Positions 1-29,150 of a DNA stretch of 64,000 nucleotides are shown here, in pieces. The DNA is taken from contig JAEUUG010000013.1 of NCBI GenBank assembly GCA_016787565.1, positions 62,001 to 126,000 on the forward strand. The letters are read 5' to 3'. The notes under the pieces were generated by a model, which ran no database searches, was not told the origin of the DNA, and saw only the letters and a program-made list of their open reading frames with translations. Every line of letters begins with the position of its first letter. The stretch's first letter is position 1. This DNA comes from Cyclobacteriaceae bacterium (GTDB lineage: Bacteria > Bacteroidota > Bacteroidia > Cytophagales > Cyclobacteriaceae). Position numbers and translations under genes: made by a program.

Positions 1-2888
1 ATATCAGTTAAGGTTTGATCATTGTAGTCTTTGTATTTAAGATACCTTTTTTTTAGTTCCGGGAGTTGAGCAATCAGATCGTGCTTCAAAGCATACGGAT
101 AAATTTTGTCACCGATTACTTTACCAAAAATGTGCTCAATACTACCATTGTTATCAAAGTCGTTAACAAAGAGAACAATTGGGCTCTCCGGTGACGCCTT
201 GAATCGAGAATTAAGACCATGATTCCCCAGAACATAATCAACATCACCATCCCCATCAATATCTGTCTGAACAATGGTATTCCACCAACCCGTGTAAGTA
301 TTGAGTCGTAATTTTTCAGTAAGGCGCTTTAATTTACCGTTGGTATTCTCAAACAACTCAATGGCCATCCACTCTCCAACAATTATAAGGTCATCATCTT
401 TATCGTTATCATAATCAGTCCAGATGGCATCTGTAATCATACCTAGATTTTTCAATGATGGAGCCACTTCTTCTGTTGCATCGTAAAAATTACCATTCCC
501 ATCATTTTTATATACAATACCATTAGCAGGCAAACCATAGCTAAACGGTATTGCTCGTTCACCTACAAAAAGATCAAGGTCGCCATCCTTATCAAAATCA
601 GCTGCAACAACAGTTGCCGTAACATTGAAGTGATTTCCAAAGGCGGGCTGCCGCGAACGTGCAAAACCACCATGACCGTTGTTAATGTACAGTCGATCGG
701 TCAGTTCATGTGAGCCAAAGGAAAACTCATTTCCACCACTGGCCACAAAAAGATCCATATCCTGATCATTGTCAACATCCAAAAAAATAGCATCCACGTC
801 CTCGAATCGATTGTCTTCATCAAAAACAGCAATTTTCTGCCTTAGAAATTTTCCGGAGGGTTCTTGCAAAAATAGAGTTCCTGCCTGGCCTCGCGCTCCT
901 CCAATATATACATCCTCAAGTCCATCCAGATTAACATCAGCAACAGCAAGATGTGGCCCTAAAGTGGATAGCATGTGAAAAGTCAACCGGTCGCGATCAA
1001 AGTCGACAAACTCATTCTCTTGATGTTTGAATGGAAAAATACTTTGTTGTGTGATATCCTCAAAAAAAATCGAGTTGCTATTTTCGGGGTTAAGGTTATC
1101 TTCCCTTACAGAGCTTTCCTGATTGATCGCTAATGTTTGATCGGCATTAACATGCTGTAAGACCGTTACCGAATGATCGGGCCATGTTATTTTCAAAACA
1201 TCAATAACCTCATGATTTCCCAATCCCACAACAATGGATGGATCCATGGAAGACTGGAAGCCGCGAGTCGGCATCTGTTCCATAAAAAATGTATCCTCAC
1301 CAGTCTGTATTTCCACACGGGAACCAACAGCATGTGTATTTAACCCTTTGCCTACCAAACTGAGTTTGATGTAATGATGATTTGGAATAATACTCCGGCT
1401 CCTATTTTGATAAATATGGGCTGCCTCATTTACATTATTCACAATAAGGTCCAACGCACCATCATTATCAAGATCCGCATAGGCTGAACCATTGGAGTGT
1501 ACCGGGTCGCCCAACCCCCATTCAATAGCCATGTCCCTGAACGTAAGATTATGCTGATTCTGGAATGCAAAATTGGGAACTGAGGTAACTGGAATGGGAT
1601 CAACCAATGCCTTATAATCAACACCTTTACGGCTGATGATTTTCTTTACCGTATTTTCGTCCATAATAAAACTGAGGTAATCCAGATCAGTGATGTCCCG
1701 GTAAATTCCATTGGCAACAAATATGTCCTTATACCCATCGTTATCCATATCGAAAAAAAGTGCTCCCCAACTCCAGTCCGTTGCTTCTACACCAGCAAGT
1801 CTTCCTATTTCACTAAATGATCCATTGCCGTTATTGAGCTGAAGCATATTGCGGTTATACTGATAATGGTATCCGTTCTGCACATTGTATTTGAGTTTAT
1901 CCCAATTTTCAAAAGTGGTGACTTGCTTCAGTCTTTTTTCTTCCGCAGGAAGCATATCTGTGACAAAAATATCAAGCCAGCCATCGTTATTGATATCGGC
2001 CATATCAGCTCCCATAGAAGCCGCGCTAATAGAGTTCATGCTTGTTTCAAGCACCTCTTTAAAAGAACCGTTGTGTTGATTCAAATACAAATAGTCACGC
2101 TCAAAAAAATCATTTGAAACATAAATATCAGGCCAGTGATCATTGTTCACATCACCAACAGTAACACCTAGTCCGAAACCAATAACGCTTCCATAAATAC
2201 CAGCCGCTTCACTCACATCGGTAAATGATTTCCCATCATTCCGAAAAAGTTTATCACCACCCACTGAATCTCGCTTATCACGGATGTTTTGCATGAGGTT
2301 GAAACTTCCGATGGCCTGAAAGGAATTATTAAGGAGATACATATCCAAATCACCATCCTGATCATAATCAAAAAACGCAGCGTGTGTCGAGTAGCCTCTG
2401 TCCGCTAATCCATATTCCTCGGCCCGCTCTGTAAACGTCAGGTCACCATTATTAATAAATAATTCATTTTGCTTATTATCATTTTTGATATCCCCTGAAT
2501 TACAGACATAAATATCCAGCAAGTTATCGCCATTAATGTCAGCTATCGCTACACCAGTACTCCAGGCACGTGATCCGGCAACCCCTGCTTTCTCTGTAAT
2601 GTCCTCAAACTGAAAGTTTCCCTTATTTAGGTACAACCGATTCTTACCCTGATTGCTGGTGAAATATAAATCCGTTAATCCATCATTGTTAAAATCGCCT
2701 GCACCAACTCCACCACCATTATAAAAATTGCGATAGGTATAAATATTGAAGCTCTCATCAAACACCAGATCATTCCTGAAATCAACCCCGGTTTGTGCGG
2801 GATCGAGTCTGATAAAAAGTGTTTGCTTCTTTTCTGTTGAGCAGGAATTTAAAAGTGATATCAAAAAAATAAAGGCACCAATGCGCAT
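1..2888 (-). CDS. FG-GAP/VCBS repeat lipoprotein with ASPIC-UnbV region, 3' end outside window
   Basis: The frame is open from an ATG at 2888 to the window edge (962 codons). It begins with a lipoprotein signal (MRIGAFIFLISLLNSC), so the mature protein should be lipid-anchored. The body is rich in calcium-binding-type FG-GAP/VCBS motifs such as DFNNDGLTDLYF and DINGDNLLDIYV, which build beta-propellers, and a middle segment resembles ASPIC/UnbV. It is a clear paralog of the protein at 3479-6805: the openings (YRNFYNGGGVGAGD versus YRNFYNGAGVALGD) and the last visible residues align, so about 140 residues are missing. The gene follows the small lipoprotein gene after 2 bp and lies at the distal end of the susE-like/susC/susD operon. 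A cell-surface binding or adhesive role in glucan use is inferred; no enzyme motif is visible. Confidence 0.85.
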   Translation of the reverse strand, partial: MRIGAFIFLISLLNSCSTEKKQTLFIRLDPAQTGVDFRNDLVFDESFNIYTYRNFYNGGGVGAGDFNNDGLTDLYFTSNQGKNRLYLNKGNFQFEDITEKAGVAGSRAWSTGVAIADINGDNLLDIYVCNSGDIKNDNKQNELFINNGDLTFTERAEEYGLADRGYSTHAAFFDYDQDGDLDMYLLNNSFQAIGSFNLMQNIRDKRDSVGGDKLFRNDGKSFTDVSEAAGIYGSVIGFGLGVTVGDVNNDHWPDIYVSNDFFERDYLYLNQHNGSFKEVLETSMNSISAASMGADMADINNDGWLDIFVTDMLPAEEKRLKQVTTFENWDKLKYNVQNGYHYQYNRNMLQLNNGNGSFSEIGRLAGVEATDWSWGALFFDMDNDGYKDIFVANGIYRDITDLDYLSFIMDENTVKKIISRKGVDYKALVDPIPVTSVPNFAFQNQHNLTFRDMAIEWGLGDPVHSNGSAYADLDNDGALDLIVNNVNEAAHIYQNRSRSIIPNHHYIKLSLVGKGLNTHAVGSRVEIQTGEDTFFMEQMPTRGFQSSMDPSIVVGLGNHEVIDVLKITWPDHSVTVLQHVNADQTLAINQESSVREDNLNPENSNSIFFEDITQQSIFPFKHQENEFVDFDRDRLTFHMLSTLGPHLAVADVNLDGLEDVYIGGARGQAGTLFLQEPSGKFLRQKIAVFDEDNRFEDVDAIFLDVDNDQDMDLFVASGGNEFSFGSHELTDRLYINNGHGGFARSRQPAFGNHFNVTATVVAADFDKDGDLDLFVGERAIPFSYGLPANGIVYKNDGNGNFYDATEEVAPSLKNLGMITDAIWTDYDNDKDDDLIIVGEWMAIELFENTNGKLKRLTEKLRLNTYTGWWNTIVQTDIDGDGDVDYVLGNHGLNSRFKASPESPIVLFVNDFDNNGSIEHIFGKVIGDKIYPYALKHDLIAQLPELKKRYLKYKDYNDQTLTD

Positions 2889-12582: not shown

Positions 12583-15408
12583 TCATCGCTTGATCACTTT
12601 AAAGCGCTGTATCCCCTTATTTTGTTTTACTTCCAATATATATAATCCCGGGGGCATTGAACTTATATCCCATTCGTTGTAATGTAACGCTTTGGGTGCA
12701 TGCACTGTGCCATTCAAGGAGATCATTTGAATATGGTGGATTGCGTCTTCAGACTCTATTGTCAGAATATGATCCACAGGATTCGGATAAACCAGCATCG
12801 TGAGCTCGCGTGCCTCCTCGACATCCGTGATGATCTCATTGGCTATCTGGACATCTGTGAACATTTTGTATTCACCAGGCTGAAGTGTCATTGAGACAGA
12901 GTTACCAGTCACTGAAAGTGATGAACCGTAAGCATAATAATTAAACCAATTTCCAGTATGCGGGAAACTTACATTTACATTTTTCTCCACCACATCAAAG
13001 TTGACCACTACAACAACATTCATTTCAGCTGCAGAAGTTGGTGTTGCCGTATAGGGGGAACTCTTCAGAATTAGTTGTTTGACCGATGCTGTTCCAATAA
13101 ATACCGTTGCATCTCCAGCCGAAAAAACTGGATACGTCTTACGAAGTCTGTTGAGGTCACTGACAATATCAAACAAACGTTGCCTTGCTGCCTCATCCTT
13201 GTATGACCACTTGATTGGTTTCGGGTCAAGCCGGCATTCGTTATTTACTGACCCATTGGTACAGTGGTTAATACTAAAGTCATATCCCAATTCCTCGAAT
13301 TGCCATAGCATTTTTGGACCAGGAACGGTAAGAAAATAGACAAAGGCTGCTTGCGCCCTGCTTAAAGCAACATTTTTATTTTTAATAGAATAACTACCAC
13401 TGGAATTTCCGGATTTAATACTATTGTACATCATGCGCTCTTCATCGTGACTCTCCATGTATCCGATTAAGTGAGGATAGTTCCATCCTCTGGTCTTATG
13501 ATAAACTGAACTTACGTCAGACCCATCGGTAAACCCTGCGGCATTTTGTAAGTAAGCATGATTCAAATTTCCCCAAACCATCATTCCCTTACCTTGATCC
13601 GCCTTATATTCTGCTAATTCTTTTTCCTCTTGATTTTGAGCAAAATGTTCCAAAATGACATAGGCATCAGGTGAGTGCTCCCAAATCTTGTCTGCCATTC
13701 TTTTGAGAATAGCTATGCGTGAAGCATCATAAGCACTCCATGCACCAACATTGTCCGGATTGTTTGTCTGCGTGAATCCTTTTGATAAATCAAACCTATA
13801 TCCATCTACTTTATATTCATTTATCCAATAATGGGTGATGGTATCCAAATAAGCCTTTGTATAAGGGCTTTCATGATTCATGTCGTAAAAAACGTTGAAC
13901 GGGTGAGTGGCAGAAACATTGAACCATTTGTTCTGCAGCGTTGGCTTTGATGTTGAAAAATCAAAATCCATCATTACATAAGGGTTTGGCATATCCTGAT
14001 GATTCAAGGCAATGTCCAGGATGACGGCAATTCCATTGGCATGGCATTGGTCCACAAATTCCTTGAATTTATTTTTAGTACCGTAATATTTATCTGGTGC
14101 AAACATAAAAGTTGGGTTGTAACCCCAGCTTTCGTTGCCGTTGAATTCCATAATGGGCATTAATTCAATAGCATTGATTCCTAACCGCTTCAAATAGTTT
14201 AGTGTATCAATAAGGGTTTGATAATTCCGGTTATTCGAATCAAAATAGTCACGCAGCAGGAGTTCGTAAACAACAAGGTTCGATTTTGCGGGTTTCTCAA
14301 AATTTGTCACTGTCCACGGATAGGAAGCCTGATTGGTTTGGAAAACAGAAACCCTGTTATAGTACCATTCTGGATTTAACGCTTTCTGAGGGTATGTTTT
14401 AAGGTTGGGGTAAGTTGTAGCAGGTATGTATTGATCAGAGGGATCTAATATCTTATCAGCATATGGATCGGCAAGCTTTAACTTTTGATCAACAAGATAC
14501 TGGAAGCCATACTCTTCTCCGGAGGTTAACCCGGAAATCGTCAACCAAAAATACTCTCCATCACGGTTCATCAGGTTCTCGCCCAGCACATTCCAATTCG
14601 TAAAATCTCCAAATGCATAAACAGAAGTTTTACCTGGAGCCCATAGACACAACGTAACTTTAGTAGGGTCACTAGATAAATAATTAATACCAGGAACAAT
14701 TCCAGTGGGCCTAGGCAAGACGGGACTTGCCATATTTACAAGAAATTGAAAGGAAACTTCTTTAATACTTGTTCCAGAAGTTGCCTTAATAACTACATTG
14801 GATGTGCCTGCTGCTGCAGCAACCAGATAATCAAATAAATAATTTGTAATGCCAGATTGAACATTTTTTAATACTCCATCTACTCGAAGTTCAAAATCGG
14901 CAGCCTCTGGAGTCTCTGCTTCAATTGAAATAGATTCTCCAACTGTAACAAAAAATGGTGACTGTGTTGGTTTGAGCAACTTCACATCAAAGGTTCCATT
15001 CCAAAATGATGTAACGAAATCGGATGTCTGCCCATCCGCCCAACTCTGACCCTTCAATAAAATACCCAAGGTGCTTTCGGATGAAATACTGGTTGTGAAA
15101 AAGTCTGACGGAGTAAAGACAAGGGTAAAGTATGTCCTTCCGTCAACAATAGATTTTGTAAATCTGGCAGGTATTGCGGCAGATGTAGCCGGATTGATAT
15201 TATATTTTGCGTCAATGTTCTTTCCCGGAATCCAAACCCAAGCATACGCTTCTGCCAGGTTAGCAAGAGCTGTTCCGGTTACATCATACCGAACTGTAAC
15301 TTGAGTATCATGTTTGAAAAACGATGGTGAAATGAGTGGGTCTGCAGCCTTCGCCTTATCAGGAAACAGTAATGTACAAATAGTAAAAATTAGTATAAAT
15401 CTCCCCAT
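12583..15408 (-). CDS. GH13 alpha-amylase/pullulanase-type enzyme with T9SS C-terminal sorting domain
   Basis: A secreted alpha-glucan hydrolase of 941 residues. The start is placed at the ATG at 15408, which gives a clean signal peptide (MGRFILIFTICTLLFPDKAKA); an upstream TTG at 15423 is in frame. Beta-rich N-terminal domains are followed by a CBM48-like region at about 235-335 (VTLCLWAPGKTSVYAFGDF). The GH13 barrel has its four motifs: DIALNH, GYRFDLSKG (nucleophile Asp540), VILEHFAQ (acid Glu587) and MESHDEER (Asp655), so it should be active. Residues from about 873 (VYPNPVDH to the end, FKVIKR) form a type A T9SS sorting domain, so it is exported by type IX secretion and probably surface-attached or released. 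An operator-promoter lies about 100 bp upstream. Confidence 0.93.
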   Translation of the reverse strand: MGRFILIFTICTLLFPDKAKAADPLISPSFFKHDTQVTVRYDVTGTALANLAEAYAWVWIPGKNIDAKYNINPATSAAIPARFTKSIVDGRTYFTLVFTPSDFFTTSISSESTLGILLKGQSWADGQTSDFVTSFWNGTFDVKLLKPTQSPFFVTVGESISIEAETPEAADFELRVDGVLKNVQSGITNYLFDYLVAAAAGTSNVVIKATSGTSIKEVSFQFLVNMASPVLPRPTGIVPGINYLSSDPTKVTLCLWAPGKTSVYAFGDFTNWNVLGENLMNRDGEYFWLTISGLTSGEEYGFQYLVDQKLKLADPYADKILDPSDQYIPATTYPNLKTYPQKALNPEWYYNRVSVFQTNQASYPWTVTNFEKPAKSNLVVYELLLRDYFDSNNRNYQTLIDTLNYLKRLGINAIELMPIMEFNGNESWGYNPTFMFAPDKYYGTKNKFKEFVDQCHANGIAVILDIALNHQDMPNPYVMMDFDFSTSKPTLQNKWFNVSATHPFNVFYDMNHESPYTKAYLDTITHYWINEYKVDGYRFDLSKGFTQTNNPDNVGAWSAYDASRIAILKRMADKIWEHSPDAYVILEHFAQNQEEKELAEYKADQGKGMMVWGNLNHAYLQNAAGFTDGSDVSSVYHKTRGWNYPHLIGYMESHDEERMMYNSIKSGNSSGSYSIKNKNVALSRAQAAFVYFLTVPGPKMLWQFEELGYDFSINHCTNGSVNNECRLDPKPIKWSYKDEAARQRLFDIVSDLNRLRKTYPVFSAGDATVFIGTASVKQLILKSSPYTATPTSAAEMNVVVVVNFDVVEKNVNVSFPHTGNWFNYYAYGSSLSVTGNSVSMTLQPGEYKMFTDVQIANEIITDVEEARELTMLVYPNPVDHILTIESEDAIHHIQMISLNGTVHAPKALHYNEWDISSMPPGLYILEVKQNKGIQRFKVIKR

Positions 15409-15470
15409 AGCGGAATCTATCAATTAGGTTAACTTGAAGCAAAGTAGCAACGAGGGCTTAGGAATCAGAG

Positions 15471-15585: not shown

Positions 15586-17280
15586 TCATTTAAAAATCAG
15601 GGACTCCATTGGACTTAGTGTTAGGTTCTTTTGAACAATCCGTTCAGTCTTCGTTAACATATCTGCATGCTTACCCAGAAGCTGTTTCGGTGCTGTAAAT
15701 GAAGACTCTTTGGAAGAACTCAAATTAATAATAACCCAGATGGTTTCCTTTTCTCCAATATTTTCCACCACCCATACATCCTCATTGTCTACTGGGTAGT
15801 ATCGAATTTCGGTTGGGCTTAATAAGGCAGGATTTTCATTACGAACCCGAATCAACCTTTTATAATGATGTAGCAGAGAATTCTCATTATCAATCTGCGA
15901 TTCTACAGATTTGCCTTTCCCTTGAATGCTCTTCCAATAATCACCCCACCAACCCGAATGATTAGTATTCCAGGGGAACCACTGGCCTTGATCCAACCAA
16001 AAGTTTCCTGTTGAATTAAACCCGGAATAGTTATCCTCAGACCACTGCATTATAGCTCGTCTGTATTGATCGTCACCAGTTTTAAATTGGGTCATACCTA
16101 TTTCCTCACCATAATAGATGTAAACTGTTCCTGGAGTAGTCAGAAGCAGACTTGCGGCAATTTTCGCCTTACTCTCATCATCTTCCAGAGTGAACATGAT
16201 CCGATTTTGATCATGATTGGTCAAGAACGGAGAAAAGTATTGGAGTGGTGCCGCAGCAATTCGATTTTGTAAATTCATCCATAAGTTTTCTCTATTCTGA
16301 GTAAGTGAACCTGAGCTCAACGTTCCAAAATCTGCAGATTTTGAAGCCTGCTTATTAAGAATATCAATCATTACATAACCAAAATCAAAATCAAAAGCAG
16401 CATCCAAACCATTGCCGCCATCCCTGTATCTTCCTACAATATCTAAACCAGTCCAGGCTTCGCCAACGAGTAATGCATCGGGTTTTATTGATTTAACATA
16501 CTGAGCAAAATTTCCCCAGAAATCTATTGTGCTTTTTGTATCTGCTTGAAGCGGATAAGGACCTTCTTCAATAGCATATCGAACAGCATCCAATCTGAAA
16601 CCATCTACACCTTTAGATAACCAAAAGCTTGCTAGTTTATGTAATTCATCAACAACAACTGATTGAGTAAGATTTAAATCAGGTTGGGAACTTCCGAAAG
16701 CCCCATAGTAGTATGCCCTTCTTGTATTATTCCAATGCCAAACAGATTCAGGCTCAACCGCTGATGACCAAGGCTTACCCCATCCGGCAGGTATTTCATC
16801 TTGCCAGATAAAATAATCTTCAAAGCCAGCCTCCCTCCCTGATGATTTGATGAACCAATCATGTTGATCAGAAATATGGTTTAAAACCAAATCCAGAATT
16901 ACTTTAATTCCCCGATTATGTGACGCTTGAATAAAATTTTCAAAATCTGACATGGTACCATAATCAGACTCAACTTTATAAAAATCTTTAAAGTCGTAGC
17001 CATGATATGATGGTGCTTCAAAAATCGGAGTCAACCAGATTCCATTGATACCTAGGTCCTTCAAGTAATCTAACCTGCTGATCATTCCCCGAAAATCGCC
17101 ACTTCCATCGCCATCAGCATCCTGAAAAGATCGAGGCCAGATTTCATAAAAAATGGCTTTGTTCCACCATAACGATGAGCTATCCATGGAAACGAGTGAA
17201 TAATAATTTGGCGAATTGTCTTTTTGGGAGCACCCAACAGTACAAATCAGAGCGATTGACAGCCAAAAAGAAAACTTCAT
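15586..17280 (-). CDS. GH13 alpha-glucosidase/alpha-amylase lipoprotein
   Basis: This 564-residue protein starts at the ATG at 17280; an in-frame TTG 6 bases upstream is less likely. It has a lipoprotein signal ending CTVGCSQK. The GH13 barrel begins IFYEIWPRSFQDADGDGSGDFRG, the calcium-loop signature of oligo-1,6-glucosidase/neopullulanase-like enzymes. Catalytic residues are visible: DGFRLDAVR (Asp231), VGEAWTG (Glu274) and TNHDQNR (Asp357), with region I as LDLVLNH. The C-terminal 90 residues form the usual beta domain. It probably cleaves maltodextrins at the outer membrane or in the periplasm. The gene is divergent from the LacI gene, and its promoter overlaps an operator. Confidence 0.93.
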   Translation of the reverse strand: MKFSFWLSIALICTVGCSQKDNSPNYYSLVSMDSSSLWWNKAIFYEIWPRSFQDADGDGSGDFRGMISRLDYLKDLGINGIWLTPIFEAPSYHGYDFKDFYKVESDYGTMSDFENFIQASHNRGIKVILDLVLNHISDQHDWFIKSSGREAGFEDYFIWQDEIPAGWGKPWSSAVEPESVWHWNNTRRAYYYGAFGSSQPDLNLTQSVVVDELHKLASFWLSKGVDGFRLDAVRYAIEEGPYPLQADTKSTIDFWGNFAQYVKSIKPDALLVGEAWTGLDIVGRYRDGGNGLDAAFDFDFGYVMIDILNKQASKSADFGTLSSGSLTQNRENLWMNLQNRIAAAPLQYFSPFLTNHDQNRIMFTLEDDESKAKIAASLLLTTPGTVYIYYGEEIGMTQFKTGDDQYRRAIMQWSEDNYSGFNSTGNFWLDQGQWFPWNTNHSGWWGDYWKSIQGKGKSVESQIDNENSLLHHYKRLIRVRNENPALLSPTEIRYYPVDNEDVWVVENIGEKETIWVIINLSSSKESSFTAPKQLLGKHADMLTKTERIVQKNLTLSPMESLIFK

Positions 17281-17451: not shown

Positions 17452-18504
17452 ATGAAATACAATCAGGTTACCATTAAAGACATCGCCCGTGAATTGGGCA
17501 TATCTCCTTCAACTGTTTCCCGAGCCCTCAAAGATCATCCTGACATAAGCCCTGAAACTAAAAAGGCAGTAAATGAACTGGCCACGAAATTGAACTACCA
17601 GCCGAATATTGTAGCGCTTAGTTTACGGCAAAGTAAAACCAATACCTTGGGCATTATCATCCCAGAACTCGTTCACTTCTTCTTCTCTACCGTAATTAGC
17701 GGAATTGAAGATGTGGCGTATAGCGCGGGCTATAATGTTATTATAACCCAATCAAACGAGTCTCTCCAGCGTGAAAAATCTGATATCAAAGCGCTCTTTA
17801 ATAGTCGGGTAGATGGCATGCTCATTTCGATTTCGCGCGAAACAAACAACTTCGAACATATTGAAAGCATTCTGGCTAAGGGTGTGCCGATGGTCTTCTT
17901 TGATCGTGTATATGAGAATATCAACTCAAGTAAAGTAATTGTTGACGACTTAAGTGGTGCAAAAGAAGCTACCCAACACCTCATTGATCAAGGATGTGTG
18001 CGCATTGCCCATTTGGAAGGTCCTCCAAATCTCGACATCACTAAACAACGCCTGGAAGGTTATGTACAGGCACTCACTGAAAACAAAGTTCCGGTTAACA
18101 AAGATTACATTGTTTCTTGTCCGCTCGGCACCATTGAAGAAGGCAAGATGGCTACTGAGAAATTACTGGCCATGAAAAATCCTCCGGATGCTATTTTCGC
18201 TACGAACGATCCTGCCGCCATGGGTGCTATGCAGGCCATTAAAGAAGCAGGACTTAAAATTCCGAAAGACATCGCTATTGTTGGTTTTAGTAACTGGTTC
18301 TTTAGCGCTCTTCTTGATCCACCATTAACTTCTGTTGATCAGCCCGGATTTGAAATGGGCCAGGAAGCTGCTAAACTTCTTATCCGTCATATTGAAATGA
18401 AGTCGAAAGATTCGGATGTTGAACCGCCAGCAGAAACTAAAATATTGAAAACACGACTTATTGTTCGCGAATCATCCCTGAAAAAAGGAAAAACGAAAAA
18501 GTAA
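17452..18504 (+). CDS. LacI-family transcriptional regulator of the alpha-glucan locus
   Basis: This 350-residue protein has a LacI helix-turn-helix at residues 5-26 (TIKDIARELGISPSTVSRALKDH), a hinge-helix region at about 50-60 (PNIVALSLRQSKT), and a periplasmic-binding-protein-like sugar-sensing domain (GIIIPELVHFFFSTVISGIED, then IFATNDPAAMGAMQAIKEAG and VGFSNW) up to about 340. LacI proteins bind palindromes with a central CG, which matches the sites around this gene. It is divergent from the GH13 lipoprotein gene and lies upstream of the GH31/MFS/esterase genes. It probably senses maltose, maltodextrin or a breakdown product; the sequence does not show which. Confidence 0.95.
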   Translation: MKYNQVTIKDIARELGISPSTVSRALKDHPDISPETKKAVNELATKLNYQPNIVALSLRQSKTNTLGIIIPELVHFFFSTVISGIEDVAYSAGYNVIITQSNESLQREKSDIKALFNSRVDGMLISISRETNNFEHIESILAKGVPMVFFDRVYENINSSKVIVDDLSGAKEATQHLIDQGCVRIAHLEGPPNLDITKQRLEGYVQALTENKVPVNKDYIVSCPLGTIEEGKMATEKLLAMKNPPDAIFATNDPAAMGAMQAIKEAGLKIPKDIAIVGFSNWFFSALLDPPLTSVDQPGFEMGQEAAKLLIRHIEMKSKDSDVEPPAETKILKTRLIVRESSLKKGKTKK

Positions 18505-18835: not shown

Positions 18836-21247
18836 ATGCCGGTAAAATCAAACACATCGATAAGTCAAAGTCTTGGTAATCTAACCTCCTGGAAGAAAGA
18901 ACCTTCAGGGCTATCCGGTAAAACCGATCAGGAAAACTTTAGAATAGTATTTTATAATGATAGCATTGCCCGAATAAGCATTACCCGGCACGAACTGTTT
19001 GATGATTTCTCCTATTCTGTAATCGCAGCGGCACCATTGAGTGATTATCCTGTAACTGAATCAGAACACGAACTTGTTATCGAAACCGGTACGCTCATTC
19101 TTAAAGTTCAAAAAAATCCAGTGCGGTTTTCGTTCCTCAACCTAAACCATCAGATAATAAACGAAGATGACTCAGCCTTTGGAACCTCCTGGAGCGGAGA
19201 CCAGGTAACAACGTATAAAAAACTTCAGGAAGGCGAACGGTTTATCGGCCTGGGTGAAAAAACCGGCCCACTCGACAGAAGAGGCGCTGGCTACATCAAC
19301 TGGAACACTGATAATTTTGCCTATATAAAAGACGCTGATCCGCTTTACTCATCGACACCCTTTTACATCGGCATCCATCACAACCTGGCATACGGAATTT
19401 TCTTCGACAATACGTATAAATCATTCTTCAACTTCGGTGCTTCCAACAATCGCTTCTCAAGCTTTGCGGCCGATGCGGGTGACATGAATTATTATTTCAT
19501 CTATGGAGAAACCGCAGGCGAAATCATTCAACACTATACACACCTCACGGGAAGAACTCCTGTTCCACCGTTGTGGAGCATTGGGTATCAGCAATGCCGC
19601 TACAGCTATTATCCCGATAAAGAAGTACTAAGTGTGGCACGAACGTTCCGCGAAAAAGAAATTCCTGCGGATGTCATTGTTTTCGACATCCATTATATGG
19701 ATAAGTATAAAATTTTTACCTGGAACCAACGTGATTTTCCCAATCCAAAAGCACTGCTTGAAGAACTTAAGCAAATGGGATTTCACCTGGTGGTCATGTG
19801 CGACCCGGGCATTAAAGTAGAAGAAGGTTACAAAACGTACGATGACGGAGTAAAAGAAAACGTCTTCATTACCTATCCGGATGGTACCAAGTATACAGGT
19901 CAGGTGTGGCCGGGTTGGTGCCACTTCCCCGACTTTACCAATCCCAAAACACGGCAATGGTGGAAAGAACAGTTTCAGGATTATGTGAACATTGGTGTAG
20001 ATGGATTCTGGAATGATATGAATGAAATTGCCACTTGGGGTAACATGCTGCCTGAAAATATAGAAATGGATTTTGAAGGAAATAAATCCAGCATACGGAG
20101 GGGGAGAAATATCTACGGCTTTCAGATGGCACGCAGTACCTACGAAGGCACCAAAGCACTATTGAAAGGCAAGCGCCCTTTTAACCTGACGCGCTCGGCT
20201 TTCTCGGGCATTCAGCGTTATGCTGCGGTATGGACAGGCGATAATGTTGCCTATGATGAACACATGATGCTGGGTGTGCGTATGGTGAACAGCATGGGCC
20301 TGACGGGAATGGCTTTTGCCGGATATGATGTTGGTGGATTTGTGGGTGATGCCAACAAGCAACTTTTTGCACGCTGGGTATCCCTCGGTGCGCTGTCACC
20401 TTTTTTTCGTGGGCATTCCATGATCAACAGCCGTGACTCCGAACCGTGGTCGTATGGTGAAGAGATAGAACAAATTTCAAGAAACTACATTCGGTTTCGC
20501 TACCAGTTAATGCCCTATATCTACTCACTCTTTTACGAGGCATCACAAAGCGGAATTCCGGTACAACGATCGTTGGCCATTGACTACACGCATGATCCTA
20601 AAATCTACGATGGTCAGTTTCAACATCAATACTTGTTCGGTCCCTCCTTGTTGGTTTGCCCTGTAGAAAGCTTTAAAGAGTTTGTGAAAGTCTATTTGCC
20701 ATTTGGCGATTGGTACTATCTCTATAACGGAAAGCAATATGGTGGAAATACGGAGGTGATTATTGAATGCCCGATGCACAAATTACCTGTCTTTGTTAAA
20801 GGTGGTGCTATTATTCCCATGCAAGTGGCAAAATCCAACACAAGTGAAAAAACGGATGTTCTTATTCTTCATGTTTATGCCGGAAAGGATCTTACTTCCT
20901 TTGTCCAGTATGAAGATGATGGAACTAGTTTCAACTATGAGAATGGCGAGTTTCTCAAGCGAACAATAGAACACAAATCAGCTGAGCGAAAATTAGTTTT
21001 GAATGCATGTGAAGGAAATTTTAACTCCTCTTTCAAAACCTTGAAAATAGTATTTCATGGATTAGAATACGCTCCACAAACAGTAAACGTCAATGGTCAG
21101 GCAATCGGTCTTCGCCCTGATGTCAACCGTTTTTTTGCAGGTCTTGAAAAGTATGATCCAATCCACGATCCCGAGCCTGCACCCGAAGAACCTGTTCATA
21201 TTGCTGAAACTTCTTACCTAACTCAAGAAATTATTGTAACCTGGTAA
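18836..21247 (+). CDS. GH31 alpha-glucosidase
   Basis: This 803-residue enzyme has the full GH31 layout: an N-terminal beta domain (1-230), then the catalytic barrel. Motifs include WSIGYQQCRYSYYPDKEVL at the barrel start, DGFWNDMNE with nucleophile Asp394, and WTGDN with acid Asp469. FRGHSMINSRDSEPW and the C-terminal beta domains follow. It releases glucose from the non-reducing ends of maltodextrins. I see no convincing signal peptide (the start is MPVKSNTSISQSLG), so it is probably cytoplasmic and acts after import by the MFS proteins. It is the first gene of an operon; the next gene begins 2 bp after its stop. Confidence 0.94.
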   Translation: MPVKSNTSISQSLGNLTSWKKEPSGLSGKTDQENFRIVFYNDSIARISITRHELFDDFSYSVIAAAPLSDYPVTESEHELVIETGTLILKVQKNPVRFSFLNLNHQIINEDDSAFGTSWSGDQVTTYKKLQEGERFIGLGEKTGPLDRRGAGYINWNTDNFAYIKDADPLYSSTPFYIGIHHNLAYGIFFDNTYKSFFNFGASNNRFSSFAADAGDMNYYFIYGETAGEIIQHYTHLTGRTPVPPLWSIGYQQCRYSYYPDKEVLSVARTFREKEIPADVIVFDIHYMDKYKIFTWNQRDFPNPKALLEELKQMGFHLVVMCDPGIKVEEGYKTYDDGVKENVFITYPDGTKYTGQVWPGWCHFPDFTNPKTRQWWKEQFQDYVNIGVDGFWNDMNEIATWGNMLPENIEMDFEGNKSSIRRGRNIYGFQMARSTYEGTKALLKGKRPFNLTRSAFSGIQRYAAVWTGDNVAYDEHMMLGVRMVNSMGLTGMAFAGYDVGGFVGDANKQLFARWVSLGALSPFFRGHSMINSRDSEPWSYGEEIEQISRNYIRFRYQLMPYIYSLFYEASQSGIPVQRSLAIDYTHDPKIYDGQFQHQYLFGPSLLVCPVESFKEFVKVYLPFGDWYYLYNGKQYGGNTEVIIECPMHKLPVFVKGGAIIPMQVAKSNTSEKTDVLILHVYAGKDLTSFVQYEDDGTSFNYENGEFLKRTIEHKSAERKLVLNACEGNFNSSFKTLKIVFHGLEYAPQTVNVNGQAIGLRPDVNRFFAGLEKYDPIHDPEPAPEEPVHIAETSYLTQEIIVTW

Positions 21248-21249
21248 CC

Positions 21250-22533
21250 ATGCTGGACATTCAGAAGAAATTCACTCAATCATTTTTTGTACTGCTGAGC
21301 CTTCCCGCCACGGCAATGGGTTTTGCACTCTGCATTCAGATTTCAGCATTGAGCTGGATACTCTCTACCCAATACAAACTCGACATTCATGAAGTCGGCA
21401 TTGTCTGGGCGGCAGGGCCCTTGGCAGGAATCGTTGGCCAGGTGCTGATAGGCATCATTAGCGATAAAGTGTGGTTTTGGGGTGGACGAAGGAGACCTTT
21501 TATTTTGATTGGTGGAACGTTGGCAGCCCTGGCTTTACTGGCGTTGCCAAACCTGGGTGTCATCAGCAGTGCTTCCGGTATCAGTATTTTTTTCATCGCC
21601 ATCATGATTGCTACTACGCTCGACATTGCAATTAACATAAGCTTCAACCCCACCCGATCAATCATTGCCGATGTAACGCCAGAGGGTGAACAACGCACAA
21701 AGGGCTATACCTGGATGCAGACCATCTCTGGCATGTTTGGTGTGTTGGCGTATGTGATTGGCGCATTTCTCGGCAACTACAACCTCATCTACCTTGGTAT
21801 TTTTCTGGTGCTGTTCTTTTCATTGCTCCCACCCTTCTTCATCAAGGAGCCTGAGCAGTTAAATGAAAGTTTCACTCCCGATCAGATCAATGCACCGAAA
21901 ATCACGGTTAGCTACAACCAACTGTACAGAATTTACTTTGCGCATGCGTTCTGCTGGCTGGGGGTACAAACCATGTTTGTCTACATCTACGCATTCATCA
22001 AAAATGAAATGGTACCGATGTCGGATGAAGGCGTAGGCCAGGTCATTGCCATTGCGTTTGCTGTGTTGAATACTGTTGGATTTATTCTCCCTGCATTAAT
22101 ACTGGAACCCCTTGCGAAAAAAAATGGTCGCGTAAAAGTTCATGCCCTCTGCATGGGTGTGATGGCGCTTGGCTATGGTGCAATCCTATTCTTAGGTACA
22201 ACACCAATGCTGTTGTATATCTTCATGGGTGTGGTAGGTATCGGCTGGGCCGCTACCGTAAGCTTACCCTTTGCTATTATGACAGAAAAAGTAGACAAAA
22301 CAAAAATGGGACTCTTCATGGGCATATTCAACTTATCCATTGTGATACCTCAACTCATTGTGAGCTTCGGATTTGGCAGCATCATTCAGGCTGCTGAAAA
22401 CAAAAATGTCATTTTCATCATCAGCGGAATATCGTTGGCTATCTCCGCCATTTTGTGGACTTTCGTACAAGAGCATGCAGTGAAGAAAACTGATGCCAGG
22501 GATCATTATCCCGAATTTTCAAAAACACACTAA
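21250..22533 (+). CDS. MFS sugar transporter (SLC45/GPH-like), first of a tandem pair
   Basis: This 427-residue inner-membrane protein has about 12 hydrophobic segments. The loop GGRRRPFILIGG after the second segment is the RxGRR-type signature of SLC45-like disaccharide transporters, and NISFNPTRSIIADVTPEGEQRTKGYTWMQ is typical of the same group. It probably imports maltose or maltodextrin into the cytoplasm by proton symport; the substrate is inferred from context. It starts 2 bp after the GH31 gene and ends 6 bp before a second, clearly different MFS gene. Confidence 0.9.
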   Translation: MLDIQKKFTQSFFVLLSLPATAMGFALCIQISALSWILSTQYKLDIHEVGIVWAAGPLAGIVGQVLIGIISDKVWFWGGRRRPFILIGGTLAALALLALPNLGVISSASGISIFFIAIMIATTLDIAINISFNPTRSIIADVTPEGEQRTKGYTWMQTISGMFGVLAYVIGAFLGNYNLIYLGIFLVLFFSLLPPFFIKEPEQLNESFTPDQINAPKITVSYNQLYRIYFAHAFCWLGVQTMFVYIYAFIKNEMVPMSDEGVGQVIAIAFAVLNTVGFILPALILEPLAKKNGRVKVHALCMGVMALGYGAILFLGTTPMLLYIFMGVVGIGWAATVSLPFAIMTEKVDKTKMGLFMGIFNLSIVIPQLIVSFGFGSIIQAAENKNVIFIISGISLAISAILWTFVQEHAVKKTDARDHYPEFSKTH

Positions 22534-22539
22534 CATCAC

Positions 22540-23895
22540 ATGAGTACTACAGCATCATCTCTTCAGAAGCCACGCATGAGTTTTTGGCAAATCTGGAATA
22601 TGAGTTTCGGATTTTTTGGAATTCAATTTGGATTCGCACTTCAAAATGGAAACGCCTCCAGAATTCTTACCTCCTTCGGTGCAGATGTTGAACATCTCTC
22701 CTGGTTTTGGCTGGCAGCTCCCTTAACGGGGATGATCATCCAACCCATCATCGGATATTACAGTGATCATACATGGACCTCGTTGGGAAGACGAAGACCA
22801 TACTTTCTGGCAGGCGCCATACTTGCCTCCTCAGCATTGCTATTCATGCCAAACGCTGCTATTCTCGCCAGCATACTCCCCCCACTCTATGTGGGTGCCG
22901 GAATTCTCATGATTATGGATGCCTCTTTCAATGTAGCTATGGAACCCTTCCGCGCACTCGTGGCTGATTTGCTTCCTTCTGATCAGCGTACGCTGGGTTT
23001 TTCCATTCAAACTTTTTTAATCGGACTGGGTGCCGTTGTAGGATCATGGCTACCGTACATCTTCGCTAATTTTTTTGGAATCCAAAATCCGAATTTAGCA
23101 GCGGGTGAAATTCCAATCGAAGTTAAACTCTCCTTTTATGTCGGAGCCTTTGTTTTTCTGGTTGCTATTTTATGGACAGTCATCACCACCAAAGAGTTTC
23201 CACCAGACGAATACAATAAAGCGGACTACGAAAAGAACCCATCCAAAAAAGGTTTATCCCAGATCATCAGCGATTTTCGGGGGATGCCCAAGACGATGAA
23301 ACAACTTGGACTGGTTCAATTCTTTTCATGGTTTGCGTTGTTCTCGATGTGGGTGTTCACAAGCCGCGCTGTCGCAACCCATGTGTATGGCCTCTCACCA
23401 GATGACATAACTTCCAAAACATATCAGGATGCTGGTAACTGGGTTGGAATTATCTTCGGAGTATACAACGGTATCTCCGCTATCTATGCTTTATTTCTTC
23501 CAGCCATCGCCTTAAAATTGGGAAGGAAATTAACGCACGCCATATCCCTGGCAGCTGGTGGCTTTGGCTTGATTTCAATCTACTTCATTCACGACCCAAT
23601 GCTGCTGTTGTTCTCTATGATTGGCGTTGGAATGGCCTGGGCTAGTATATTGGCAATGCCCTATGCAATTCTTGCCGGAGCTATCCCCTCTCATAAAATG
23701 GGTATCTACATGGGGGTATTTAATTTCTTTATTACGCTGCCGCAAATAGTCAATGGCATTGTTGGTGGACCGATCGTGAAACATTTTTATAACTCAAATG
23801 CCATTTACAGTTTGGTAATGGCCGGTGTATTCCTGCTGATCGCAGCTTTCTGTGTCCGATTTGTTGAGGATAAAGATGATATCGTTAAAACATGA
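22540..23895 (+). CDS. MFS sugar transporter (SLC45/GPH-like), second of a tandem pair
   Basis: This 451-residue protein has about 12 membrane segments. It has the same loop signature (LGRRRPYFLAGA) and the matching MDASFNVAMEPFRALVADLLPSDQRTLGFSIQ motif. It shares these family motifs with the preceding MFS protein but differs over most of its length, and it carries a longer extramembrane segment near the middle (KEFPPDEYNKADYEKNPSKKG). Its stop codon overlaps the start of the esterase gene by 4 bases (ATGA), which implies translational coupling. It may have a different sugar specificity from its neighbour or pair with it; the sequence does not decide. Confidence 0.9.
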   Translation: MSTTASSLQKPRMSFWQIWNMSFGFFGIQFGFALQNGNASRILTSFGADVEHLSWFWLAAPLTGMIIQPIIGYYSDHTWTSLGRRRPYFLAGAILASSALLFMPNAAILASILPPLYVGAGILMIMDASFNVAMEPFRALVADLLPSDQRTLGFSIQTFLIGLGAVVGSWLPYIFANFFGIQNPNLAAGEIPIEVKLSFYVGAFVFLVAILWTVITTKEFPPDEYNKADYEKNPSKKGLSQIISDFRGMPKTMKQLGLVQFFSWFALFSMWVFTSRAVATHVYGLSPDDITSKTYQDAGNWVGIIFGVYNGISAIYALFLPAIALKLGRKLTHAISLAAGGFGLISIYFIHDPMLLLFSMIGVGMAWASILAMPYAILAGAIPSHKMGIYMGVFNFFITLPQIVNGIVGGPIVKHFYNSNAIYSLVMAGVFLLIAAFCVRFVEDKDDIVKT

Positions 23896-24968
23896 GGTTT
23901 GTTCTTTTTTTTATCTGTGCCATTCATTCCGTTCTACTTTTCAGTCAGGATTACAAAAGCTTTACGCAGACCATCCAAAAGCTTAAAAAAACATCAACCG
24001 CAGAAGAAGCTAACAGCTTATGGACTGAGCTAACATCAAAAGAAGCTATTCCCCTGACCTATAAAGATTCTGTTGCCTTTTTGTATAAGGGTGAAGCCAC
24101 GTCTGTTATGTGGGTGGGCGATTTTAATGAATGGGGATCGAATGCGCAACGCAACAAAAAAGGGGAACGCATTGTAAATACCGACATCTGGTTGCTGAAA
24201 GCATCTTTTCCCGAAGATGCACGGCTGGATTATAAAATCGTTATAAACGAAACAAACTGGATATTGGATCCTCTGAATCCTGATCAGCAGTGGTCAGGTG
24301 TTGGTGGCGGAAGCCCTAACTCCGAATTGCGCATGCCCCAATGGAAAGAAGATCCTGTTACCACCGCTCCACTTCAAGGTGTTAAACCCGGCAGACTTGA
24401 AAAAGATATTCTTTACTTCAGCAAATTACAGGGGTACCAGGTTTCTTATTCTGTGTACCTTCCGCACGGCTATTCATCAAATTCAGTTTACCCAATAATT
24501 TATGTTACTGATGGTTACGAGTACATGCATGAGCAGATGGGAAACATGATTATCGTTTTGAATAATCTGATTCACCTGCAAAAAATACAACCCATTATTG
24601 CCGTATTCATCGATCATCGTGAACCGGCTGATCGCTCCAATAACAGAAGAATGCCCGAACTCGCCATGAATGAAAAATTTCTTTCTTTCATAACAAAGGA
24701 GCTTATTCCTCTGGTTGAAAAGAAGTATACCGTCTCGACAGATCCTGGTCAACGGGCCATCATCGGAACATCCATGGGTGGACTCGCTTCTGCTTATATA
24801 GCCTTTTCAAAACCTGAATTCTTCGGATTGGCGGGAATTCAGTCGCCAGCGTTCTGGTTTAAGCCAGAGATTTATTCGCTTTGCGAAAATCTGCAGACTC
24901 CACCCATAAAAAAACCTTTATGTCAACCGGTAAAATTTTTGACACCGAGGAAGGAAGTCGAAAAATGA
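23892..24968 (+). CDS. CBM48-esterase (enterochelin-esterase/Esterase-D-like), interrupted by a frameshift
   Basis: The open frame gives 358 residues: a signal peptide (to about residue 19, LLFSQ), a CBM48/E-set domain at 45-145 (TSVMWVGDFNEWGSN) and an alpha/beta-hydrolase esterase domain from about 165, with the nucleophile elbow GTSMGG (Ser294). After PPIKK the frame runs into an unrelated tail and stops at 24966-24968. The true C-terminus, with the catalytic His, continues in the -1 frame from 24914 to 25090. One extra A in the A7 run, or a -1 shift there, would give a normal 399-residue enzyme. Relatives remove acyl groups from sugars or act on glucan-linked esters; the substrate here is unknown. 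It is the last gene of the GH31 operon. Confidence 0.85.
   Translation: MRFVLFFICAIHSVLLFSQDYKSFTQTIQKLKKTSTAEEANSLWTELTSKEAIPLTYKDSVAFLYKGEATSVMWVGDFNEWGSNAQRNKKGERIVNTDIWLLKASFPEDARLDYKIVINETNWILDPLNPDQQWSGVGGGSPNSELRMPQWKEDPVTTAPLQGVKPGRLEKDILYFSKLQGYQVSYSVYLPHGYSSNSVYPIIYVTDGYEYMHEQMGNMIIVLNNLIHLQKIQPIIAVFIDHREPADRSNNRRMPELAMNEKFLSFITKELIPLVEKKYTVSTDPGQRAIIGTSMGGLASAYIAFSKPEFFGLAGIQSPAFWFKPEIYSLCENLQTPPIKKPLCQPVKFLTPRKEVEK
24908..24914 (+). other. A7 run forming a canonical -1 slippery heptamer
   Basis: In the reading frame of the esterase these bases are read A AAA AAA after AT, the X XXY YYZ form of a -1 frameshift site. Slipping back one base lets the next codon be ACC and restores the conserved sequence TFMSTGKIFDTEEGSRK. 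I did not find a convincing pseudoknot downstream by eye. Confidence 0.6.
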
Positions 24969-25090
24969 AAAGTCTGCTGGACAAAAATGCATGCACATAT
25001 CAGTATGTTGAGGTGAATCAGGGACACTCATGGGGTAATTGGCGTGATCTGATTGATGATATGTTGATTTATTTTTTCGGGTTCAAGTGA
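24914..25090 (+). pseudogene. C-terminal part of the esterase in the -1 frame
   Basis: These 58 codons encode TFMSTGKIFDTEEGSRKMK through VNQGHSWGNWRDLIDDMLIYFFGFK. This is the standard end of Esterase-D-type enzymes, including the catalytic His in GHSW (residue 379 of the joined protein). Its conservation shows either a recent mutation, a sequencing error, or continued use through frameshifting. Confidence 0.8.
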
Positions 25091-25138: not shown

Positions 25139-26281
25139 ATGATGAACCTTAGAAACTTACTGGCCCTGGCATCAATAGCATTACTGGCATCCTGCAGTTC
25201 CGGTAAAAAAGCCTATGAACGTGGAAACTATTACGAAGCCGTGATGAGATCTGTAGCAAAACTCAGGCAAAATCCGGATCACGCCAAATCATTGGAAGCA
25301 TTGAAGAATTCATATCCAATGGCGGTGGAGTACTTTGAAAGCCAGGCAAAAAACGAAATCGCCTCGAATTCGAACTATAAATGGAAAAATGCAATTGACT
25401 CATACAATCAAATCAACACCATGTATGAAGCAATCCGCCAGTGCCCTGGTTGCTTAACGGTTGTGAAAAGTCCCAAAAATTATTATTCGGAAATCGCTCC
25501 ACTCAAGGAGAAAGCTGCCGAAGAGAGCTATACAGCTGGTATCAATTCGCTGATGAAGGGTACACGGGAGGATGCCAAACGCGCCTACTTTAACTTTGCA
25601 GATGCCCAAAGTTACGTGCCTGGTTATAAAGATGTGGTGGAATACTTGGATAAATCTAAATTTGAAGCCACCGTTAAAGTTATTATTGAGCAAATCCCAG
25701 TTCCGAATCGATATAATTTAAGTGGTGGATTTTTTCAGGATAAAGTAGAAGAGTTCGTTCATAACAACTATACCGATCGGGGATTTGTTAAATTTTATAC
25801 TCCGGAAGAGGCGCGGGCGGTTAATCTTCCTTTTGCCGACCAGATCATGCGGATTCAATTTGATGACTTCACGGTAGGCAATACAATTTTAAAGGAGAAA
25901 GAAGAGACTGTATCGAAAGACAGTGTAAAAGTTGGAGAAGCAAAGGTTGATGGCAAAACTGTGCCCGTATACAATACCGTAAAGGCAAAATTCACAACCT
26001 ACCGTAAGGAAGTACTGTCTGCAGGTTTGCTCAGCATGGTCATTGTTGATGCAAAAACAAACGGTGTACTTTCACATAAAAAATTTAGTGGTGAATATGT
26101 GTGGTTCAGTACATGGGCTAGGTTCAATGGGGATGACCGTGCACTGAGTGACCAACAACTCGCCCTTTGCAAACAAAGGGAAACACAACCCCCCGTGGCA
26201 CAGGATTTATTCCTGGAGTTTACCCGCCCTATTTACAACCAGCTCATACCCGCTATTAAAGGGTTCTACCAGAACTACTAG
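25139..26281 (+). CDS. lipoprotein of unknown function with TPR-like helices
   Basis: About 380 residues. The ATG at 25139 is preferred over an in-frame TTG at 25109 because it places a normal lipoprotein signal (NLLALASIALLASCSS) at the N-terminus. The first 180 residues are helical and TPR-like (AYERGNYYEAVMRSVAKLRQNPDHAKSLEAL). The C-terminal half is mixed alpha/beta (VIIEQIPVPNRYNLSGGFFQDKVEEFV) and ends near LIPAIKGFYQNY. I do not recognise a characterised family, though the layout is that of Bacteroidota outer-membrane lipoproteins. It begins about 50 bp after the esterase C-terminus, and a strong terminator follows. Confidence 0.8.
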   Translation: MMNLRNLLALASIALLASCSSGKKAYERGNYYEAVMRSVAKLRQNPDHAKSLEALKNSYPMAVEYFESQAKNEIASNSNYKWKNAIDSYNQINTMYEAIRQCPGCLTVVKSPKNYYSEIAPLKEKAAEESYTAGINSLMKGTREDAKRAYFNFADAQSYVPGYKDVVEYLDKSKFEATVKVIIEQIPVPNRYNLSGGFFQDKVEEFVHNNYTDRGFVKFYTPEEARAVNLPFADQIMRIQFDDFTVGNTILKEKEETVSKDSVKVGEAKVDGKTVPVYNTVKAKFTTYRKEVLSAGLLSMVIVDAKTNGVLSHKKFSGEYVWFSTWARFNGDDRALSDQQLALCKQRETQPPVAQDLFLEFTRPIYNQLIPAIKGFYQNY

Positions 26282-29143: not shown

Positions 29144-29150
29144 AGCTAGG

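Follow-up and report, generated by a model that had tools for sequence, protein, structure and literature searches.

Programmed -1 frameshifting at an A_AAA_AAR heptamer is known from dnaX. It is also known from the IS1 and IS3 elements, in which A_AA.A_AA.A and A_AA.A_AA.G make up 72% of the heptamers according to the relevant section of PMC4066793, where some proven -1 frameshift sites are listed without a known stimulator. A second route to two products is slippage on poly-A, as in Citrobacter rodentium tssM1, where a run of 11 A gives ~20-25% slippage (the tssM1 account in PMC4256274), and in the Buchnera and Blochmannia cases cited in PMC5009743; the run length for slippage is put at ~9 or more A/T, varying among bacteria, in the passages on this point in PMC1088944. 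Frame transitions without such a use are described as singleton frameshifted genes, or recent frameshift pseudogenes, in the GeneTack study (PMC3711429), whose discussion of them expects sequencing errors, not true indels, behind homology-confirmed singletons, while regarding those near the 3' end as more likely true indels.

The gene analysed here lies in a window of 64,000 nucleotides (the whole stretch of DNA that was analysed, from a Cyclobacteriaceae bacterium). It shares with the IS1/IS3 sites of PMC4066793 the heptamer, its phase and the -1 direction, but its site is not conserved, no stimulatory structure was found and there is no mobile element. With the productive poly-A cases, as far as these sources describe them, it shares an A run, a short out-of-frame tail and an open alternative frame, but its run is 7 rather than 9 or more, and there is no evidence of use. 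With the singleton frameshifted genes, as characterised in the relevant part of PMC3711429, it shares a single homology-confirmed frame transition toward the 3' end and a site motif that is not conserved in relatives, and no difference was found. At the protein level, a PDB search with a homolog (L012, from Chryseosolibacter, order Cytophagales, the closest homolog with a name) returned feruloyl and enterochelin esterases (8bbp, 6rzn, 7b5v, 2b20), which are hydrolases of the same PF00756 type; the window gene differs from these in lacking its C-terminal part in frame.

An esterase gene with a frame break at an A7 run

The esterase is the last gene of the run GH31-MFS-MFS-esterase. The features of the locus are as follows.

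17452..18504, + strand: LacI-family regulator, upstream of the run (profile)
18836..21247, + strand: GH31 glycoside hydrolase, first of the run (profile)
21250..22533, + strand: second MFS sugar-transporter-type gene (profile)
22540..23895, + strand: MFS sugar-transporter-type gene, its stop overlapping the esterase start (ATGA) (profile)
23892..24968, + strand: 0-frame esterase ORF, 358 aa, 359 in the family table (ORF list, PF00756 profile)
24908..24914, + strand: A7 run, the frame-break site, read AT[A AAA AAA] CCT in the 0 frame
24914..25090, + strand: -1 continuation, the conserved C-terminus (frame comparison, profile, homologs)
24965..24968, + strand: ATGA overlap of the 0-frame stop and a -1-frame ATG (sequence, homolog alignment)

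Genes with alpha-amylase domains lie nearby, at 15586 and 12583, and the gene cluster is of alpha-glucan type, concerned with sugar use. The second of these ORFs (12583-15423, 946 aa) carries its alpha-amylase domain in two stretches, together with a Por secretion tail and a part resembling CBM48. The downstream neighbour of the esterase, at 25145-26281, encodes 378 aa that are lipoprotein-like by eye and matched nothing in Pfam or NCBIfam at E 0.001. A gene of this type (36-80% identity) and MsrA are both found downstream of the esterase in 11 of the 11 named-contig loci L012-L022, and GH31 and an MFS gene are found upstream in 10 of them, the remaining locus, L021, beginning inside the esterase.

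The N-terminus of the 0-frame ORF is hydrophobic by eye, and a profile search gave a weak Enterochelin_N-like match below its cut-off. The 0-frame protein covers PF00756 positions 7-158 of 251 (E 3e-24), scoring 86.6 bits against a cut-off of 22, and the -1 piece alone covers positions 202-250 (E 6e-4; 20.1 bits, slightly below the same cut-off). Since both sets of positions belong to PF00756, the two pieces are, as judged from the profile, one domain. The 0-frame part contains a GTSMGG motif, the Ser of which (codon 24771-24773) we take, from the motif, to be the nucleophile.

The original prediction placed the break exactly where A AAA AAA is read, and this proved correct: the A7 run stands in canonical A_AAA_AAA phase in the frame of the 0-frame ORF, that is, as an X_XXY_YYZ heptamer in the correct phase for -1 frameshifting, and the break is genuine in the sequence. 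After the run the 0 frame adds 17 unrelated residues and ends at TGA 24966-24968. The -1 frame, listed from TTG 24881 and stopping at 25088-25090, carries an Asp (codon 24941-24943) and a His within GHSWGNW (codon 25025-25027), each of which is found in 38 of 38 homologs. The claim that the -1 frame encodes the conserved C-terminus with the catalytic His is thereby upheld, although the catalytic role of the invariant Asp and His is presumed from family knowledge. Both residues lie beyond the break, so they are absent from the main product. In L012 the corresponding His, in GHSWGNWR, aligns with GHTWANWR of the feruloyl esterase 8bbp, whereas the invariant Asp has no Asp opposite it there. Read through in the -1 frame, the protein aligns nearly end to end with its homologs (65% over residues 5-397 with L012).

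The ATGA at 24965-24968 would mimic translational coupling were the frame break not known. We considered two separate genes, or translational coupling through the ATGA, and rejected both. The ATG corresponds to the conserved Met of the homologs (37/38), so that the overlap is an accident of ancestry, and the re-initiated 41-aa piece would be without the Asp.

The break site among homologs

The family was searched in 390 genomes including the organism's own, drawn evenly from a larger group, at E 1e-60. An esterase homolog was present in 82 of the 389 other genomes, giving 86 match rows, 29 of which had loci that were aligned, the others being counted from table entries only. Frames of 384-506 aa were open in 85 of the 86 rows (335 in G400), and no stop occurred inside the match in 85, the exception being G310. 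For the alignment, 47 loci from the combined searches yielded 38 distinct proteins once nine identical copies had been dropped; L010, L011 and L021 are partial.

All 38 distinct homologs cross the site in a single frame, one of them (L011, genome G040) being broken elsewhere in the gene. The usual pattern at the site is PP-[VI]-K-[IV]-[FY]-[ML]-[TS]-T-G, and 37 of the 38 have no residue matching the first Lys of the window's read-through (L007 has Ser) and are one residue shorter than that read-through. Six homologs have a longest A run of 5 at the site, 16 have 4 and 16 have less, and to the question whether A7 or A8 is usual among orthologs the answer is thus neither. At the A run the window exceeds its relatives by two bases. 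Since the homologs reach at most A5 and are one residue shorter, the change is a net two-base gain and not simply one lost base; a loss from A8 to A7 would require an earlier in-frame gain of a residue absent from 37 of the 38. The window's K-T-F at the site recurs in two homologs, L058 and L062, which suggests, as far as the alignment goes, that the Thr was inherited and that the surplus lies in the A run. L058 groups with the window in a clade of low support (0.568). Of the deletion or base loss in sequencing that had been proposed for this site, a recent mutation or an error thus stands, while the loss of a single base is not the simplest account.

Downstream of the break, the window matches 14 of the 15 columns that are common to at least 90% of the homologs, and its C-terminal identity exceeds its upstream identity by 0.058, a difference like that of the other homologs (mean 0.040, sd 0.042). 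No decay was seen downstream of the break in the comparison with 38 homologs. Old decay was rejected on these grounds, as the original prediction had argued from the intact downstream frame; and because the downstream part is without decay, the break is either young or false.

Proposed recoding, slippage and switching at the A7 run

Both programmed -1 frameshifting and transcriptional slippage had been offered as explanations. On such an account, -1 frameshifting at A_AAA_AAA, polymerase slippage or both would yield two forms of the esterase, one truncated and one full-length, each with its own role, a proposition that we regard as very improbable. The canonical phase of the heptamer and the -1 frame, intact to its natural stop, are in its favour, as are the measurements reported for E. 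coli in the relevant parts of two studies, in which A_AA.A_AA.A gives >0.10% frameshifting without stimulators (PMC4066793) and an A7 tract gives 0.39% insertion with the RNA polymerase (PMC6260861). However, the slip site and its two-frame layout were found in 0 of the 38 distinct homologs, and the sequence after the A7 run was no more stably folded than its shuffled versions (z 0.07 and 0.32, and -0.67 with upstream sequence included) in a test of structures other than pseudoknots. On these two grounds, programmed frameshifting was rejected. Moreover, the truncated form is without the two invariant residues, and a second role for it is not evident.

The frequency of the heptamer was assessed in a sample of 338 kb from the same genome, consisting of the window and 14 further stretches, with 248 ORFs of at least 150 aa taken from a mechanical list that includes antisense frames. 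A_AAA_AAA stands in phase in 42 of these ORFs, a frequency similar to that in two relatives (39 sites in 174 ORFs of G017 and 14 sites in 90 ORFs of G032), and the 41 others are without a recognised frame break. The three phases of A7 in these ORFs number 42, 35 and 43, so there is neither bias toward nor avoidance of the slippery phase. Because about one ORF in six has the heptamer, its presence at the break does not count as evidence for recoding; homopolymers attract indels and errors in any case.

Transcriptional slippage fares no better with a run of A7, which is below the known efficient runs. The productive poly-A sites described in the sections consulted of PMC1088944 and PMC4256274 have 9 or 11 A, against a criterion of ~9 or more A/T, and according to the corresponding part of PMC6260861 the bacterial polymerase requires 7 T or more, and a still longer run in the case of A. 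If the E. coli values apply, leaky slippage at A7 would likely still give a trace of full-length protein, ~0.1 to 1 percent. It could be envisaged that the lengthening was tolerated and that such leakage, whether at the ribosome, at the RNA polymerase or at both, supplies full-length esterase in small but useful amounts, making this a newborn recoding site and a two-product gene in this lineage only; we consider this, too, highly unlikely.

A7 is short for a contingency tract. The idea that the run is a hypermutable switch turning the esterase on and off draws on the homopolymer at the break and on the intact downstream frame, but the 248 ORFs hold 77 sense A7 runs, which makes such a run ordinary in this genome, and the run is absent from the 38 homologs. 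We therefore give phase variation hardly any credence.

Probable recent indel or possible sequencing error

The explanation that we prefer, and hold to be probable, is that an indel has recently arisen, in this lineage alone, in an esterase that is dispensable and belongs to an alpha-glucan-type cluster. A homolog-sized A run (at most 5) would have grown to A7, probably through slipped-strand mispairing during replication, the net +2 being equivalent to -1 modulo 3. Ribosomes would then leave the conserved frame at A7, add the unrelated residues and terminate at 24966-24968, and the main product, without the C-terminal alpha/beta-hydrolase part and its invariant Asp and His, should be inactive. 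We infer from the sequence that the break lies in the organism's DNA, beyond the assembly, that it is young and that the product is inactive. The marks of a frameshift pseudogene are found here, in that all 38 homologs are intact through the site and conserved residues are absent from the main product. The gene looks dispensable. The genome as a whole has 11 PF00756 matches, 9 of them above the cut-off and the window gene among them, and another PF00756 esterase might cover the function.

Breaks were also observed in other members of the family. In G310 the homolog (L095, G310:C12:34500-38300, positions 1268-2452, minus strand) aligns over nearly its full length with four in-frame stops (3 TAG, 1 TGA). 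The preceding MFS gene and the following gene of the 25145 type are both open; this copy is an independent pseudogene, unless its stops are in some way unusual. In the single-contig 9 Mb genome G040 the frame of the homolog (L009, 2103-2154, minus strand) breaks at about residue 130, in a G6 run or close to it, and hence at another position and another base than in the window. If these breaks are real, loss of the gene may recur independently, but they could themselves be errors; in either case, disrupted copies of the gene turn up repeatedly, with the damage at unrelated positions.

The same possibility applies to the window. If the true run has another, frame-keeping length, the esterase is intact and the break is a sequencing or assembly error, which we judge to be possible, if doubtful. 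An isolated break at a homopolymer without downstream decay is just what such an error would give; the upstream GH31 and MFS genes are kept in 10 of the 11 loci, and the expectation stated for singletons in PMC3711429 points the same way. The genome (4.06 Mb, 18 contigs) is just 89% complete, and neither reads nor a second genome of the species were found, in a genus search that covered one genome and a contig scan that may omit same-genome records. On the other hand, an error starting from a homolog-like state would need a two-base overcall in a short run, and with a one-base undercall the true gene would carry the residue that 37 of the 38 homologs are without.

The wider state of the assembly was examined by running a coding-potential model with shift states on the 338 kb and on three sets of relatives. 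It reported 30 shifts in the 338 kb, compared with 15 in 240 kb of G017, 7 in 120 kb of G032 and 8 in 178 kb of named loci. The distance from the shift to the old stop is 82 nt in the esterase; among the other shifts of the organism's own sample the largest is 46, and 21 are within 15 nt. Of these 29 other own shifts, eight doubtful ones were inspected: five are gene junctions, and three are model noise at gene ends, where the downstream frame has 25, 12 or 5 codons; the remaining 21 were judged by position alone, from the old stop lying within 15 nt of the shift. By position, 4 of the relatives' 30 shifts lie at least 45 nt before the old stop, and the relatives may hold frame breaks too. Of 148 simulated single-base losses placed at least 180 nt from ORF ends, the model reported 140, which is the fair figure for its sensitivity, as an earlier run giving 148/148 lacked a non-coding state and overstates the performance. 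A screen by homology only, over ~70 gene bins of the own sample, gave three events, namely the esterase, its antisense shadow and a match spanning the junction of two genes near 29149, and the reverse control, with the organism's own proteins against the relatives (~176 bins), gave one, in L017.

The esterase is thus the sole recognised break in 338 kb with 248 ORFs, despite 122 other A/T7 and 33 A/T8-9 runs. The run-length spectrum is like that of the relatives, and A/T8 runs, at 13.9 per 100 kb against 17.5, 9.2 and 8.4 in the three relative sets, are not depleted. General homopolymer or frame damage was rejected on this basis: the assembly is not generally frame-damaged, and a single local error is possible.

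The class of singleton frameshifts to which the esterase appears to belong has already been described, and the present case fits what the pertinent part of PMC3711429 says of it. For annotation, one frame-broken gene should be marked here rather than two, and beyond annotation the break has little significance. In a genome in which roughly every sixth ORF (42/248) carries the canonical slippery heptamer, finding it at a break says little in favour of recoding. Were the lengthened run instead tolerated through slippage, and were this reading true, the esterase would represent a recoding site at the beginning of its evolution.
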